Assembly (NCBI GenBank): GCA_023248535.1
Contig: JAHFEJ010000006.1
Coordinates: forward strand, 1 to 39,022
Direction: 5' to 3'
DNA: 39,022 nucleotides
From: Nitrospinales bacterium
GTDB taxonomy: Bacteria > Nitrospinota_A > UBA7883 > JACRGQ01
Of the stretch, positions 22,955 to 30,008 are shown one piece after another; positions within the stretch are counted from its first letter, which is position 1; every line of letters begins with the position of its first letter. The notes under the pieces were generated by a model. It saw only the letters and a program-made list of their open reading frames with translations, did no database searches and was not told the DNA's origin. The translations under genes and the position numbers were made by a program.

Positions 22955-23335
22955 TTAGTATTTTCCCGATCGGATCACGGAGGCAACGGCGAATTTCTTT
23001 TCATGGGTGAGGGAAAGGATAAAGTCACCGCCTCCCTTCGCCGCGATGAGCGATTGCAACGGTTGGCTAAAGGCAAGCGCGGGCGGTTCCCTGTCACCGC
23101 GGATCACCCAGACATCTTTGGGGCCAAACCCATGAAAGCCGGTTCCCAACGCTTTGGCGAACGCTTCCTTCGCGGCGAAGCGGGCGGCGTAGTATGCGGC
23201 CGGTTCCTTGAGGCTCGCGGCGCCGACGATTTCATCCGGGGCGAATACGCGGGTGATGAATGCGCCGCTATGGCGTGAGATGGCGCGGCGCATGCGCGCC
23301 ACTTCAACGATGTCGATACCGTGACCCAGGATCAT
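22955..23335 (-). CDS. acpS: Holo-[acyl-carrier-protein] synthase
   Basis: The 126-residue enzyme transfers phosphopantetheine from coenzyme A to acyl carrier protein, activating it for fatty-acid synthesis. The magnesium ligands are visible as Asp8 in GHGIDIVE and Glu57 in RFAAKEAFAKALG. LSLTHEKKFAVASV is the typical C-terminal strand. The length is standard. The coiled-coil gene upstream ends three bases before this start, so the two are probably one transcript. Confidence 0.95.
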   Translation of the reverse strand: MILGHGIDIVEVARMRRAISRHSGAFITRVFAPDEIVGAASLKEPAAYYAARFAAKEAFAKALGTGFHGFGPKDVWVIRGDREPPALAFSQPLQSLIAAKGGGDFILSLTHEKKFAVASVIRSGKY

Positions 23336-23338
23336 CGG

Positions 23339-24184
23339 TTATTGAAGCGGCCCGGCCCGGCGGGGGCTTCCGGCCCGGTTGTTCAGCGGCAGGATCCGCG
23401 CCGTCTTTTCCAGCGGTACGCCCAACTCCAGAAAGCCGCCGTCCGGCAGTTTTGTTTTCACGGCTTCGCGGAAAATCTTTTCCCCCCATTCTGAAAGGGA
23501 GGGGATTTTTTTCATCAGCTCCGTCAGCTTCGCATAGTCTTCCGCCAGTGACTGTTCGTTGCGCATCTGGCCGTTGAGGTCGAGGATGATATCCCGAATG
23601 TCCTTTTGGTATATCGCCAGCTTGGTTTCCAGCAAGCCGGCCCGTTTGGCCAGCTTGACCGACCGCGCTTTGAGTTTTTTCCGTTCCTCGGCCAGTTGTG
23701 TTTGTTCCACCTCGGCGGTATCGGCCTGCCTTTGCAGACGATCCATTTCGGCGGAAAGGCGTTCCATGAATTTCACTTTCTTATCGGCCAGGCTGCCGCC
23801 GTTTTCTTCCGGGGCGAAGGAACAGGGAAATTTTCCTTCCATCAGTCCCGTGTACTGTGCCACGAGGGTTTTGGCCGTCTGCCGCGCCGCCTCGTGGGCC
23901 GATATGCTTTCTTTCAGCTTGTGCTGGGTGAGGGTGATCTTGCCCCGCAATGCCGCAAGGGCGGTGTTGCATTCGTCGCGGTGGGTGGTAATCAGCGTCA
24001 GGCGTTCATTAAGGGTTTTTGTGCGGTCGAACATAAAAGGGAGGGCAAGCCGGTATTTGTGAATGACATCCTTCAGCCGTTCCAGGGCTTCTTTTTCAGT
24101 GCGCATCGTTCGCGCAACGCGCCGGCGCAGTTCTTCAGCGGATTCCTGCATGTCTTTCTTATCGTCATGTCCCCGCTCTTTCAT
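23339..24184 (-). CDS. Unrecognised coiled-coil protein
   Basis: I do not recognise this 281-residue protein. It is strongly charged, and heptad-like patterns suggest long coiled coils over about residues 10-60, 75-115 and 135-215. There is no signal peptide or membrane span. The C-terminal 60 residues are not coiled-coil and include PSLSEWGEKIFREAVKTKLPDGGFLELGVPL. It overlaps no domain family I can name. It sits directly upstream of acpS and is divergent from enolase. An extended -10 promoter lies only a few bases before the ATG (see 24193-24201). Confidence 0.8.
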   Translation of the reverse strand: MKERGHDDKKDMQESAEELRRRVARTMRTEKEALERLKDVIHKYRLALPFMFDRTKTLNERLTLITTHRDECNTALAALRGKITLTQHKLKESISAHEAARQTAKTLVAQYTGLMEGKFPCSFAPEENGGSLADKKVKFMERLSAEMDRLQRQADTAEVEQTQLAEERKKLKARSVKLAKRAGLLETKLAIYQKDIRDIILDLNGQMRNEQSLAEDYAKLTELMKKIPSLSEWGEKIFREAVKTKLPDGGFLELGVPLEKTARILPLNNRAGSPRRAGPLQ

Positions 24185-24192
24185 TACCCCCT

Positions 24193-25630
<1,438 letters not shown>

Positions 25631-25639
25631 CGCCGCAAC

Positions 25640-25987
25640 ATGTGGAAGCAGGCGGCACTGAAAATTTTGTGGGGCGGCGGCGGCCGCGCGCGGCCGCTCT
25701 TCTTTTTCAGCCTGCTGTTCCTCGCCATCGTGTTCCTTGCTTCATGGTTCAAGGCGGACGGCATCAAGAGCGTGTTCGAGTACGACAACAAGCTGGCGGC
25801 GGATATGGAAGGGCTGAAAAAGCTCCAGGCCGAGAATGAGGTTTTGAGGGAAAAGATACGTTCCGTGCGCGACGGTACTTATTTGATGGAAAAGTACGCG
25901 CGAGAAAAATTACTGATGGCCCGCCAAAACGAAGTGGTTTTCCGCTTCAGCGAAGAGCAGCCATCGGCGGGGGATAAACACCCGTAA
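25640..25987 (+). CDS. ftsB: FtsB/DivIC-family septum formation protein
   Basis: The 115-residue protein has a short basic cytoplasmic start, one membrane span (about residues 20-36, FFFSLLFLAIVFLASWF) and a coiled coil (about 48-80). The motif KLQAENEVLREKIRSVRDGTYLMEKYAREKL is typical of the FtsB/DivIC family, which links cell-division proteins FtsL and FtsQ/DivIB at the septum. Its position right after eno supports the call. The C-terminal 20 residues are unremarkable. Confidence 0.88.
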   Translation: MWKQAALKILWGGGGRARPLFFFSLLFLAIVFLASWFKADGIKSVFEYDNKLAADMEGLKKLQAENEVLREKIRSVRDGTYLMEKYAREKLLMARQNEVVFRFSEEQPSAGDKHP

Positions 25988-26002
25988 TAAAGGAGCTGCA
26001 AG

Positions 26003-26224
26003 GTGGGTGACGGAACGGGGCCTGTGGACCTTACCGGCCAGGATTCAATCTGGGTGTGCACCTGCATGCAGTCGGAGATGTGGCCGTATTGTGATGGCGC
26101 GCATCACAGCTTTGGCGGTGCGGGCCCGGAAGAAGTGAAGCTCGATCCCCAAAAGACCTATAAGATATGCCAATGTTACAGGACTAAAACAAGACCTTTC
26201 TGCGACGGAACCCATCTCAAGTAA
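26003..26224 (+). CDS. Tandem CDGSH iron-sulfur protein
   Basis: This 73-residue protein holds two CDGSH-type [2Fe-2S] motifs. The first is CTCMQSEMWPYCDGAH, the second CQCYRTKTRPFCDGTH. Each has three cysteines and a histidine in the pattern C-x-C-x2-S/T-x3-P-x-C-D-G-x-H. Eukaryotic relatives are mitoNEET and Miner2. Bacterial tandem forms are thought to transfer clusters or electrons, but their role is not settled. GTG at 26003 has AAGGAG about nine bases upstream. It is placed 15 bases after ftsB and may share its transcript. Confidence 0.92.
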   Translation: MGDGTGPVDLTGQDSIWVCTCMQSEMWPYCDGAHHSFGGAGPEEVKLDPQKTYKICQCYRTKTRPFCDGTHLK

Positions 26225-26255
26225 GGGAGCATTCCCTCCGCTTTATCCCTCGATG

Positions 26256-26277
26256 AAAGAGGTTATGCTCCTCTTTT
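26256..26277 (+). terminator. Weak terminator-like hairpin after the CDGSH gene
   Basis: AAAGAGG (26256-26262) pairs with CCTCTTT (26270-26276) across a seven-base loop, with one more T after it. It overlaps the last codons of the convergent minus-strand gene. Confidence 0.4.
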
Positions 26278-26463
26278 AGGGCGCGGCGGGCGGAACGCGC
26301 GGGCAGTTGCCGCTTCCTCTTCCATGCCGTGCATGATTTCCTCCATTAGGGCTTCGGCCCTTTCCTTATTGTTATGCTCCAGCCGCATCGCTTCATCCAG
26401 CAGGATGTTTTTCAGGCCCGCTATCGAAGAGCCGCCGATCTGAAGTTTTTTTACTGTTGCCAT
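26263..26463 (-). CDS. Small hypothetical protein
   Basis: I do not recognise this 66-residue protein. It starts MATVKKLQIGGSSIAGLK and continues into a charged helix with many Glu residues (LLDEAMRLEHNNKERAEALMEEIMHGMEEEAA), ending in a basic, proline-rich tail. There is no signal peptide or membrane span. The ATG at 26463 is chosen because GGTGAG lies about six bases before it. In-frame Met codons at 26475 and 26511 are alternatives. The helix pattern and start signal make a real gene likely, but no function can be given. Confidence 0.6.
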   Translation of the reverse strand: MATVKKLQIGGSSIAGLKNILLDEAMRLEHNNKERAEALMEEIMHGMEEEAATARAFRPPRPKRGA

Positions 26464-26734
26464 GTCGCTCACCATACTTATCGGTTGTGCATAAGGTGTG
26501 CCCAAGGACAATAAGAAAAACCGGCCGCAACTATCGAAAATACCGAGTGTTCAAATCGGCATGGTTAAGCACGGCGATGAAAGGTGAACTTTTTTGCCGG
26601 TTGCGGGAAAATTATGACGTTTTTTTCTGGCGTATCGGGGATGTACCCAGGTTCCCTGAACACGGCAAAACAAGATACAATAATTATGTTGCGACGCGGT
26701 CATGGAGATGGCTTGGTTATCAATGGAGGAATGG

Positions 26735-27136
26735 ATGAAACAGGGACGGCTGAATATTATTCTTGGTTCCGCGGTAATCATCGTGGCCGGCATTGGCGGG
26801 TTTGCCCTCGGCTTTACGGTGGAGCATCATTTTGTGCTGGGGCATTATTCCCCCGGCCTGGCACGCTTTCTCACCAAAGCCGGACATTCCCACGGCATGC
26901 CGATGGCATTTTACAACCTTATCGTCGGCGGATTGATTGACCGTTTCGGACTGGGCGAGGGGGAAATGAAGTGGTGTTCGTGGCTGGCCGCCGGCGCGTT
27001 TTTAATGCCGTTGGGGCTTCTGTTGCGCGGGCTTGACGGCGGTGCGCTTACGTTCGCGCCGGTGACGCTGGTGGGCGGGTTGTCGTTCATGGCGTCGGCG
27101 GCGCTGATCCTGAAGGGGGCGTTGGCCGCCCGCTGA
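26735..27136 (+). CDS. Small membrane protein with conserved-looking histidines, unknown function
   Basis: The 133-residue product has three to four hydrophobic segments (about residues 7-27, 52-64, 75-92 and 100-130). Histidines cluster between the first two segments (VEHHFVLGHY and AGHSHGMPMAFYNLI), a pattern that could bind metal or haem, though this is only a suggestion. I cannot assign a family. The ATG at 26735 is preferred because GGAGGA lies five bases upstream. Met codons further upstream at 26702 and 26723 lack such a signal. TACAAT at 26676-26681 may be the -10 box of its promoter. Confidence 0.72.
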   Translation: MKQGRLNIILGSAVIIVAGIGGFALGFTVEHHFVLGHYSPGLARFLTKAGHSHGMPMAFYNLIVGGLIDRFGLGEGEMKWCSWLAAGAFLMPLGLLLRGLDGGALTFAPVTLVGGLSFMASAALILKGALAAR

Positions 27137-27143
27137 TCCGGGC

Positions 27144-27172
27144 TTGCGGCACGGCGCGGCCGCGCATACAAT
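27144..27172 (+). promoter_or_regulatory. Sigma70-type promoter giving a leaderless mRNA
   Basis: TTGCGG (27144-27149) and TACAAT (27167-27172) are separated by exactly 17 bases. The ATG of the next gene begins at 27179, seven positions after the -10 box, which is where transcription should start. No ribosome-binding site precedes the ATG. Confidence 0.65.
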
Positions 27173-27178
27173 CGGGGC

Positions 27179-27646
27179 ATGGCGAAGCTTTTTGATTCCC
27201 TGAACCAGTCGCACCTTGATTTTATCGCGGCGCAAAAGGTGTTTTTTATCGGCTCCTCCGCGCCGGGGAAGGATACCAACATATCCCCCAAGGGGATGTT
27301 CGATCTGAAGAACGCCGGCCCCAACCGCTTGGCATACATCCACACCTCCGGCAGCGGCAACCGGACCGCGGAAGACATTGCGGCGGGGAGCGGGGTGACG
27401 CTGATGTTCTGCAGCTTCGGCGAAAAACCGCTCATCCTGCGTCTTTATTGCCGGGCCGAGGCGCTGGCCTCCGGCGATCCCCGCTTCGAGGAATTGCTTC
27501 CGTTGTGGAACGGTTTCACCAGCGAACGGATACGGAACATTTTTATATTTGATGTTTACCGCGCGCAGGAATCCTGCGGGTGGGGAGTGCCGCTTTTTTC
27601 GTATACCGGTGAGCGGCCCGAGGGGAACCGTTTGCGTCACGGCTAA
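27179..27646 (+). CDS. Pyridoxamine 5'-phosphate oxidase-family protein
   Basis: The 155-residue protein has the split-barrel flavin-binding pattern of PNPOx-like proteins. FFIGSSAPGKDTNISPKGMFDL and LAYIHTSGSGNRTAEDI are the characteristic segments, and VTLMFCSF follows. It is a relative of, not necessarily the same as, the vitamin B6 enzyme PdxH. Such proteins bind FMN, haem or F420, and the substrate here is unknown. No signal peptide is present. The start is set by the promoter geometry just upstream, since there is no Shine-Dalgarno sequence. Confidence 0.85.
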   Translation: MAKLFDSLNQSHLDFIAAQKVFFIGSSAPGKDTNISPKGMFDLKNAGPNRLAYIHTSGSGNRTAEDIAAGSGVTLMFCSFGEKPLILRLYCRAEALASGDPRFEELLPLWNGFTSERIRNIFIFDVYRAQESCGWGVPLFSYTGERPEGNRLRHG

Positions 27647-27699
27647 ACATGCCGGTCCCGGGGCCTCGATTTCCTTTGGTAGTGAATTCAGGCCGACAT

Positions 27700-27708
27700 T
27701 GCTATAAT
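27700..27708 (+). promoter_or_regulatory. Perfect extended -10 promoter giving a leaderless mRNA
   Basis: TGCTATAAT is a complete TGn-TATAAT extended -10 element. The ATG of the lipoprotein gene starts at 27715, six bases after the box, which is the expected transcription start. No ribosome-binding site is present between them. Confidence 0.7.
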
Positions 27709-27714
27709 GCCCCG

Positions 27715-28005
27715 ATGCAGACCAAAAAAATATTGATGTTAACCGCCGTCATGGCGTTGTTGTCGGCGTGCAGCGTGGAACACCTTAATCTACCGGTGCC
27801 GAACGCATTGTCGCGGGAGAAGGTGGCGCAACTGGTCGTCGGCAAGTCAACGAAGGCGGAAACCGAAGGGCTGCTTGGCAAACCGCTCGACGTGCTGGTG
27901 ATTGATGGCGTTGAACGCCACTTCTACAAGGATTTCAATCTCCGCGCCCTTCATGTGGAGTTTGGCAAGGACGGCGTGGTGTCTGGGTATAAATACAGCG
28001 ACTAG
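27715..28005 (+). CDS. Small BamE/SmpA-like lipoprotein
   Basis: The 96-residue product begins with a lipoprotein signal (MQTKKILMLTAVMA) and the lipobox LLSAC. The mature part has the BamE/SmpA-type pattern: LVVGKSTKAETEGLLGKPLDV is followed by two short beta strands and ends VEFGKDGVVSGYKYSD. BamE proteins help the outer-membrane barrel assembly machine, but many lipoproteins of this fold have other roles, so the exact function is open. Met at 27715 is chosen because the signal peptide starts there and the promoter ends just before it. Confidence 0.8.
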   Translation: MQTKKILMLTAVMALLSACSVEHLNLPVPNALSREKVAQLVVGKSTKAETEGLLGKPLDVLVIDGVERHFYKDFNLRALHVEFGKDGVVSGYKYSD

Positions 28006-28046
28006 TCCGCCGCCCGCGGCCGGGCGGGGCGGCGGCGGAAAGGGAA

Positions 28047-30008
28047 ATGCTGTTTCGTAAAAAGACCGTGGCCGCGGCTTTGCTGGCGGGGGCGCTGGCG
28101 GGCGGATTGGTGGGATCCGTCTTTGTGCGTTTCTCCGATATTCCCTCCGTCCGGGCGTTGCAGAATTACACGCCGCCGACAAGCACCAAGATTTATTCCG
28201 ACGACGGACGGATCATCGGCGAGTTTTTCCAGGAGAAACGGGAGCTGCTCGGTTTTTCCCAAATTCCCAAAGACGCCGTCAACGCCGTGCTTGCCGCGGA
28301 AGATGCGCATTTTTACAAACACCGGGGGTTCCGCGTCTATTCCCTTCTCCGCGCGCTTGCCGCCGATATACGCGCCCGCCGTTTCGTGCAGGGGGGAAGC
28401 ACTCTTACCCAACAGCTGGCCAAAACGCTGTTCCTCAGTTCCGAAAAGACGTTTAGCCGCAAGTTGAAAGAGCTCATGATAGCCCTGCAACTGGAAATCA
28501 ATTACAGCAAGAGCGAAATCCTGACGTTTTACTTCAATCAGATTTATTTCGGCTCTGGCGCCTATGGGCTGGAAGCGGCGGCGGAGGTGTATTTCGGCAA
28601 ACACGCCGCCGATCTCACAGTCGCCGAATGCGCCTTGATCGGGGCGCTGCCGCGCGGCCCCAGCATCTACTCTCCCTATAACGATATGGCCAAAGCCCGC
28701 GCCCGCCGGGCTTGGGTGCTGGGGCGGATGGCGCGGGAAGGATTCATAACCGAAGAGCAGCGCGCCGCGGCCGAGGTGGAACCGATCACGCTGTCGCCCC
28801 ATAAAAAGCCGGAGGTGGCTCCGTATTTTGTGGAGATTATCCGTCAGGCGCTGGAAGAAAAGTACGGCGGCGAGACGATGTACCGCCAAGGACTTGCCGT
28901 TCATACAACCCTGAACATCGAGATGCAATTGGCCGCCACGCAAGCGCTTGCCGCGGGGCTGAAAGAAGCGGAAGGGCGGATCGGGCGCCGCGGCGGCAAT
29001 CCGGAGGGGTTGCCGTTGCAGGGGGCGCTGATCGCCATCGACCCTGCCACCGGCGCCGTGAAAGCCATGGTGGGCGGGCGCGATTTCACCGAGAGCCAGT
29101 TTAACCGCGCGCTGCAGGCCAGGCGCCAGCCCGGTTCCGCCTTCAAACCGATTGTGTATGCCGCCGCCATCCGCGACGGCCTCACCCCTTCCACATTCCT
29201 CATCGATTCCCCCATAGAGATGGACGACCCGTCCTTTGGCGGTAGCTGGAAACCGAAGAATTACGAAAACCGTTTCTACGGCAAAGTAACGTTGCGCAAG
29301 GCGCTCACCCATTCCATGAATGTGGCGTCGGTGAAACTCTTTATGCAGATCGGCCCCGATAAAGTGATCCGTTTTGCCCGTGATGCCGGGATACGGAGCG
29401 ATATCAAGCCGTATCCTTCGACGGCACTGGGTGGAACGGAAGTGACATTGGCCGAAATGACTTCCGCCTATGCGCTATTCGCCAACAAGGGACAGCGGGC
29501 CGAACTGGAAATGATCCGGAGCGTGGACAGGAAAGGGGGGCGTGGCGATGCCTACTTCCCGATTCTAACCGAGGTTATGAGGGCGCCGAAGGCGTTCTTA
29601 ATGACCAGCATGCTTAAAAGTGTCGTGGATGAGGGGACTGGAAAGGCTGCCCAGGAGGTGGGCCGTCCCGCCGCCGGCAAAACCGGCACCACTGATGATT
29701 TCACCGATGCATGGTTTATCGGGTACACCCCGCAGCTGGCGGCCGGGGTTTGGGTTGGGTATGACATAAAGAAATCAATGGGTGAAGGGGAAACCGGCGG
29801 ACGGGTGGCCGCCCCCATCTGGAGCGCCTTTATGAAGAGCGCGTTGGCGGGGAAGGAATCACGGGATTTCAGGGTCCCAGACGGCATTGAGGAAGTGGCG
29901 ATAGACGATGCCACCGGCCTGCTCGCCGATACCCGATGCGGCAAAAGCCACACGGAATATTTTGAGGCCGATTCGGTTCCGGATCAAAGTTGTCTCGACG
30001 CCCGATAG
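28047..30008 (+). CDS. mrcA: Class A penicillin-binding protein 1A
   Basis: The 653-residue enzyme both polymerises and cross-links peptidoglycan. A single N-terminal membrane anchor (about residues 8-27) is followed by the glycosyltransferase domain with catalytic Glu85 in EDAHFYKHRG and the GGSTLTQQLAK motif. The transpeptidase domain has Ser364 in PGSAFKP, Ser423 and Asn425 in SMN, and Lys545 in KTG. It is shorter than E. coli PBP1A (about 850 residues) and lacks its large inserted domain, as in many other phyla. The ATG has AAAGGG upstream. It lies 41 bases after the lipoprotein gene and may be co-transcribed with it. Confidence 0.93.
   Translation: MLFRKKTVAAALLAGALAGGLVGSVFVRFSDIPSVRALQNYTPPTSTKIYSDDGRIIGEFFQEKRELLGFSQIPKDAVNAVLAAEDAHFYKHRGFRVYSLLRALAADIRARRFVQGGSTLTQQLAKTLFLSSEKTFSRKLKELMIALQLEINYSKSEILTFYFNQIYFGSGAYGLEAAAEVYFGKHAADLTVAECALIGALPRGPSIYSPYNDMAKARARRAWVLGRMAREGFITEEQRAAAEVEPITLSPHKKPEVAPYFVEIIRQALEEKYGGETMYRQGLAVHTTLNIEMQLAATQALAAGLKEAEGRIGRRGGNPEGLPLQGALIAIDPATGAVKAMVGGRDFTESQFNRALQARRQPGSAFKPIVYAAAIRDGLTPSTFLIDSPIEMDDPSFGGSWKPKNYENRFYGKVTLRKALTHSMNVASVKLFMQIGPDKVIRFARDAGIRSDIKPYPSTALGGTEVTLAEMTSAYALFANKGQRAELEMIRSVDRKGGRGDAYFPILTEVMRAPKAFLMTSMLKSVVDEGTGKAAQEVGRPAAGKTGTTDDFTDAWFIGYTPQLAAGVWVGYDIKKSMGEGETGGRVAAPIWSAFMKSALAGKESRDFRVPDGIEEVAIDDATGLLADTRCGKSHTEYFEADSVPDQSCLDAR

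Follow-up and report, generated by a model that had tools for sequence, protein, structure and literature searches.

Positions 27700-27717 of the forward strand quite probably form a leaderless promoter, and leaderless promoters of this type appear to be a minority but regular strategy of the lineage, seen most consistently within the source organism's own family. The window, that is, the whole stretch of DNA that was analyzed, comprises 39,022 nucleotides of contig JAHFEJ010000006.1 from a Nitrospinales bacterium (assembly GCA_023248535.1; source genome G000, 2.87 Mb in 132 contigs). At the site of interest, TGCTATAAT occupies 27700-27708 and is followed by the six bases GCCCCG (27709-27714) and the start codon of a small lipoprotein gene, and the letters confirm the claim of the earlier note that the gap equals the one in front of the adjacent gene starting at 27179. 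The site comprises the following features:

27700-27702, forward strand: TGC, extended -10 element, present in all four genomes of the genus
27703-27708, forward strand: TATAAT, -10 hexamer in the promoter of the 27715 gene, exact consensus, in all four genomes of the genus
27709-27714, forward strand: six-base spacer GCCCCG between the -10 hexamer and the ATG, identical in all four genomes of the genus
27715, forward strand: predicted transcription start, the A of the start codon, judged from the -10 spacing and the C at -1
27715-28005, forward strand: small BamE-like lipoprotein, 96 amino acids, predicted to be leaderless

The extended -10 element is as perfect as previously claimed, TGnTATAAT being exact in 4 of the 4 genus genomes, and the promoter has no TTG -35 hexamer at a distance of 16-18 bp. 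A consensus promoter scan of positions 23300-28100, with a scanner that demands a -35 match, found neither this promoter nor that of the 27179 gene. In all four genus genomes, TGCTATAATGCCCCGATG of the lipoprotein gene is kept, and the lipoprotein genes of other genera are without the combination of a -10 hexamer and a gap of six. The ATG at 27715 lies inside a longer mechanical open reading frame (ORF) that begins at 27649; it is nevertheless the likely true start of the protein because the lipoprotein signal peptide MQTKKILMLTAVMALLSAC opens there and because, in G005, a relative, the lipoprotein ATG has an in-frame TGA ending 18 bases before it, the six intervening codons including no start codon. 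The mechanical start of this gene thus lies 22 codons too early, which is a warning for gene finders. None of the Shine-Dalgarno (SD) tetramers GGAG, GAGG and AGGA occurs shortly before the ATG, a weak test given that the -10 hexamer occupies that place. Homologues of the lipoprotein were detected in 21 of the 24 genomes of the phylum, the source genome included. Among the four homologues scanned against the Pfam BamE profile, that of G008 scored above the cut-off (1.3e-7), the 27715 protein below it (0.0036) and the two others just below it. The next gene on this strand encodes a transglycosylase-transpeptidase.

The gene immediately upstream, which encodes a PNPOx-like protein, shows the same geometry with a different kind of promoter (TACAAT, spacer CGGGGC and ATG, again with a gap of six bases):

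27144-27149, forward strand: TTGCGG, candidate -35 hexamer of the 27179 promoter, 17-bp spacer
27167-27172, forward strand: TACAAT, -10 hexamer of the 27179 gene
27179-27646, forward strand: PNPOx-like protein, 155 amino acids, predicted to be leaderless (Pfam PNPOx_N, 2.7e-7)

We compared 19 loci of this gene from 18 genomes, and in all but one (G002) the start codon aligned with that at 27179. Within the family, denoted f1, TACAAT or TATAAT is found at a gap of exactly six in six of the seven start-aligned genomes, with five different spacers among the six (CGGGGC twice, CGGCGT, CGCTGA, CGCCCG and TCCCGG). All six also carry a TTG hexamer upstream of the -10, at 17 bp in five and at 18 bp in one, the chance of finding such a hexamer at those spacings being 0.01-0.11 each. 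In the seventh genome, G011, the gene has neither a -10 hexamer nor an SD core. Outside f1, an SD core is present in 10 of the 11 loci, and a -10 hexamer at gaps 3-12 in none. Because the 27179 gene combines a TTG -35 with an ordinary -10, and the 27715 gene an extended -10 with no TTG -35, it is the distance to the ATG that appears to be the fixed feature.

Within the window, the pattern is no more frequent than expected by chance. TATAAT-N6-ATG with one mismatch was seen 3 times, compared to a mean of 3.27 in shuffled sequences, so that the window alone proves nothing, and the observation that two neighboring genes have identical geometry, from which a regular strategy had been argued, carries no weight by itself; the looser pattern TANNNT-N6-ATG was seen 11 times against a mean of 7.17. 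The genome-wide enrichment of this spacing, which the earlier note had named as the way to check its proposal, is detected. TATAAT-N6-ATG occurs 37 times in G000 versus 6.5 times per control gap, a ratio of 5.7, where the eight control gaps are gaps 12-15 (29 occurrences together) and gaps 2-5 (23 together). The reversed pattern occurs 6 times versus 37, but we set this control aside and used the gap controls because its ratios are high even in genomes with little excess over the gap control (47/12 in G040 and 47/9 in G050).

We further scanned 764 kb of G000 with 594 called genes and 393 kb of G004, a genome of the same genus, with 308 genes. The genes were called with a simple purpose-made ORF and hexamer caller rather than a standard program, and the -10 was defined as TATAAT with at most one mismatch, A2 and T6 being fixed. 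For in-frame ATGs in the G000 sample, 16 sites have a gap of six and 13 a gap of seven, compared to 1-9 sites at each of the other gaps between 0 and 25; given that gap seven is nearly as frequent, gap six is not the sole spacing. Out-of-frame ATGs yielded 4, 1 and 3 sites at gaps 6, 7 and 8, respectively, and no more than 6 at any gap. For gaps 6-8 taken together, 37 sites were found versus 13.0 expected in the 594 genes of G000 (P = 4e-8) and 25 versus 4.2 in the 308 genes of G004 (P = 4e-12); for gaps 5-11, the corresponding values are 61 versus 30.3 and 35 versus 9.7. Gaps 9-11 are also somewhat over-represented in G000 (9, 8 and 5 sites versus 4.3), so that, for part of the set, the leaders may be short rather than missing. 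In these two genomes, the excess amounts to about 4-7% of the genes at gaps 6-8 and to about 5-8% at gaps 5-11, short leaders included, which is a lower bound because a near-TATAAT hexamer was required and weaker -10 boxes go uncounted. GTG codons show a small gap-six excess in the G000 sample (6 sites, with 0-5 at the other gaps), hinting at leaderless GTG starts in this genome; no such excess is seen in G004 (1 site).

The candidate sites share a signature that resembles a promoter. We assembled 87 sites from gaps 6-8 of G000 and G004, together with the fetched gap-six sites from G004 and G006 whose frames run for at least 75 codons. In this set, T is found at bases 23 and 22 before the -10 in 48% and 41% of the sites, and G at bases 3 and 2 before the -10 in 49% and 55%. 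The G two bases before the -10 is present at 34 of 62 sites with gaps 6-8. It is rarer in both control sets, namely 21 of 75 sites with gaps 13-25 (P = 0.001) and 19 of 73 sites before out-of-frame ATGs (P = 0.0006). Sites with a gap of six favor G at -14 and C at -1, the latter being present in 17 of 31 such sites versus 163 of 578 ATG starts of longest ORFs (P = 0.0016). Both the spacing and the C at -1 are as would be expected if transcription started on the A of the ATG. Near -35, TT within bases -24 to -21 before the -10 is more frequent at gaps 6-8 (26 of 62 sites) than before out-of-frame ATGs (15 of 73; P = 0.006), but this signal is not specific because TT is also found in 0.36 of the gap 13-25 set. 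A G, often GG, stands in the sites of G000 and G004 where the T-G of an extended -10 would be expected; since the same is seen at gaps 9-11, the G may be a general feature of promoters in this lineage. None of the 62 sites has an SD core, but we do not count this as evidence: with the -10 filling the space in question, hardly any other outcome was possible.

Conservation of the spacing in orthologous genes was further examined using 40 pattern-matching sites picked among the matches listed (24 from G004, 10 from G006 and 6 from G003). Eight of the 40 open no 70-codon frame in the stretch examined (seven are closed and one runs into a contig end), and 33 provided a query of at least 50 codons, 7 of which matched the G000 sample. 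In the four G004-G000 gene pairs with aligned starts, the gap of six is kept in every case; left out of this count were a 74-codon frame that is probably not a gene (gap 6), a 50% identical homologue from another genus (gap 10) and a partial match with an unaligned start. A separate comparison of overlapping genes between the sampled stretches, requiring at least 50% identity and an alignment beginning within 12 residues, gave 4 pairs only, too few to use: between G000 and G004, one pair with an unaligned start and one in which G004 has TATCAT and G000 has TATCGT, these two hexamers sharing a gap of 8; and two pairs with G012 that lack a -10, one of them with an unaligned start.

The search of the phylum returned 24 genomes, 11 of which belong to f1. 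All 11 are enriched for the gap-six pattern, with ratios between 2.0 and 5.8 (309 sites versus 92.8 expected when pooled, and 309 versus 105.5 when gaps 12-15 only serve as the control). Among the 13 phylum genomes outside f1, the ratio is raised in G014 (4.9), G018 (3.4), G015 (2.7) and G012 (2.0), slightly raised in G020 (1.8) and G021 (1.6), and at most 1.4 in the other seven (G013, G016, G017, G019, G022, G023 and G001). The notion that the enrichment is restricted to one family was dropped, given that G014, G015 and G018 are raised as well. A fuller TATAAT was also considered as a hallmark of the lineage and dropped because the search filter itself imposes TATAAT. In the sampled stretches of genomes outside f1, in-frame gap-six sites number 0 in G015 (99 genes), 0 in G019 (82 genes) and 1 in G001 (47 genes), and in G012 (324 genes) there are 7 such sites, with 7 at gap 16 as well; these four samples do not all agree with the genome-wide counts. 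Pooled over 29 comparison genomes, with gaps 12-15 as the control, the pattern shows no enrichment (1020 sites seen versus 1042 expected); these genomes were hand-chosen from the best 80 of 592 enolase matches and may include a distant relative. The enolase matches reach no more than 70% identity and come from many phyla. The 16S rRNA nearly matches the Nitrospina probe NTSPN693 (PMC3600790); an exact match to the probe occurs in none of the genomes, and a match with one mismatch in 5 of the 24 phylum genomes and 1 of the 29 comparison genomes, so that the probe provides no more than a lead to Nitrospinota. Individually, G047 (Anaerolineales) and G050 (Spirochaetales) display a mild gap-six excess (1.6 and 1.7, P below 0.001) and G034 (Acidobacteria) a ratio of 2.0 on 13 sites (P = 0.016); three comparison genomes with 2-3 matches each have higher ratios of little meaning.

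Conventional initiation is well represented in the same genome. The 16S rRNA retains an intact anti-SD sequence (complementary strand, AAAGGAGGTGATCC), an SD core precedes a start within the first 60 bases in 239 of 557 other genes, and the SD rate per start codon is 0.115 in frame versus 0.047 out of frame. With a normal anti-SD and common SD starts, the organism appears to mix the leaderless and SD-led modes. The mechanical ORF of the enolase gene (24236-25630, forward strand) starts 39 codons too early, and its likely start is at 24353, after the SD sequence AAAGGAG, where most of the homologues begin matching. The earlier suggestion that leaderless mRNAs are a regular strategy of this genome stands insofar as the excess is genome-wide, but it extends to a minority of the genes only, SD starts being common, and the third of the examples offered for it differs from the other two.

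That third example, on the minus strand, had been described as near-identical to the two forward-strand promoters, a likeness that does not hold: positions 24201-24193 read TGCTAGAAT, with TAGAAT as the hexamer, eight rather than six bases separate it from the ATG at 24184, and the start codon itself is ambiguous. The features are:

24193-24201, reverse strand: TGCTAGAAT, -10-like element of the divergent gene, a likely promoter with an uncertain leaderless start
24149-24151, reverse strand: alternative start codon (codon 12 of the mechanical ORF), with GATAAG and purines before it, SD-like

The gene (24184-23339, minus strand) has 11 in-frame codons between the near-leaderless ATG and the SD-like ATG. 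TAGAAT is present at gap 7 in 3 of 3 relatives in the genus and TAAAAT at gap 7 in G008; altogether, the upstream ATG is kept at gap 7-8 in 5 of the 9 loci compared, and GATAAG with mostly purines precedes the downstream ATG in 8 of the 9. In G009 and G011, the GATAAG stretch lies in a different reading frame and includes a TAA in frame with the upstream start, so that the start in these two genomes must be the downstream ATG. A leaderless start at the upstream ATG is therefore only one possibility for this gene; an SD-led start at 24151 behind a leader of about 35 bases is another, as are two starts on one mRNA, an arrangement that is possible within the genus, and, if anything, the SD-led start seems to us the older. 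The notion that the gene is plainly SD-led was dropped. The match to this gene on contig C55 of G003 contains one in-frame TAA.

From the position of the element at 27700-27717, its enrichment, its conservation and its promoter-like signature, we infer where exactly transcription starts at 27715 and how the mRNA is translated. The element would be a housekeeping (sigma-70-type) extended -10 promoter from which transcription by RNA polymerase begins at the A of the ATG. The resulting mRNA of the BamE-like lipoprotein would then have neither a 5' leader nor an SD sequence and would be translated by the leaderless route, with the ribosome binding directly at the 5'-terminal AUG. The 27179 neighbor would be expressed in the same way from a -35/-10 promoter with the same geometry.

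A real promoter could also be followed by a protein start further downstream in the ORF, in which case the mRNA would carry a short ordinary leader. This may apply at 24193-24201, and the BamE-like ORF does have a second in-frame ATG, at 27736. A start there would, however, cost the signal peptide its Lys-Lys, and no SD core precedes 27736; for the neighbor, the 27179 start aligns with that of the loci outside the family, and 10 of those 11 loci have an SD-led start at this very codon. We consider this explanation unlikely for the two forward-strand genes, and equally improbable is a scenario in which both are read from an upstream operon promoter, with the -10-like strings as compositional accidents or minor promoters. 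Such an operon would fit the close packing of 27179-27646, 27715-28005 and 28047-30008 on one strand as well as the chance-level frequency of the pattern in the window, but accidents would hardly account for the exact gap that relatives keep while the spacer changes, or for the genome-wide peak at gaps 6-7, and neither gene has the SD core that an internal operon position would call for.

The peak might, finally, reflect not promoters but a sequence bias before ATG codons, for example, an A/T-rich ribosome standby site or binding of S1. A/T-rich stretches before non-SD starts are so discussed for some phyla (PMC5397173), and the -35 signal in our sets is weak and not specific. A bias of this kind would be expected neither to peak at only one or two gaps nor to bring along, with the spaced hexamer, a G at -14 and a C at -1, both of which are rarer in the control sets, and we regard it as very improbable. 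Leaderless transcription from the promoter at 27700-27717 remains the reading that we prefer.

Promoters of the TGnTATAAT class are the extended -10 promoters of sigma-70. The 27715 promoter is like them in its exact TGnTATAAT and in having no TTG -35 hexamer at 16-18 bp, and unlike them in that its predicted transcription start coincides with the start codon. Leaderless expression in bacteria is best known from Actinobacteria and Deinococcus-Thermus, and a survey of 953 bacterial genomes predicted leaderless genes in 207, mainly within a small number of groups, the SD sequence being replaced by a TA-like signal that is TATAAT-like in genomes of medium GC content; switching between the SD-led and leaderless modes among orthologues was measured as well (PMC3160421). 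The genes described here share with that set the TATAAT-like signal in place of an SD sequence and the mode switching among orthologues; compared to the account given there, single orthologous genes are followed here through the switch at a fixed spacing. In Deinococcus-Thermus, a -10 element lies a few bases upstream of the ORF with no ribosome-binding site, transcription starts at or near the start codon, the spacing is required, and an added -35 strengthens expression; leaderless genes make up about 30% of the ORFs on average, and the same study scanned the bacterial domain as well (PMC12340547). The present lineage is alike in the -10 adjoining the ORF, the missing ribosome-binding site and the spacing requirement. 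It differs from what that source describes for Deinococcus-Thermus in the G favored before the -10 and in extent, the excess here being about 4-8% of the sampled genes, as a lower bound. Judged by its sequences, the finding is a further lineage of an already known leaderless kind.

For the phylum as a whole, which is small and has been sampled little, we tentatively suggest, while leaning slightly against rather than toward this broader reading, that leaderless promoters are a standing mode, steadiest in one family and scattered elsewhere, and that genes in f1 have switched between SD-led expression and leaderless expression from a promoter at the six-base distance, often with a G in place of the T before the extended -10. 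Under this reading, the PNPOx-like gene would have switched clearly and the BamE-like gene in one genus. The special value of the system is the clean contrast at one gene, the PNPOx-like one, which is predicted to be leaderless in family members and SD-led in the other genomes; with a family that is enriched throughout, such a contrast allows the loss of a leader to be studied in before-and-after pairs. If this is true, the lineage would be a natural series for watching the switch between SD-led and leaderless expression gene by gene.
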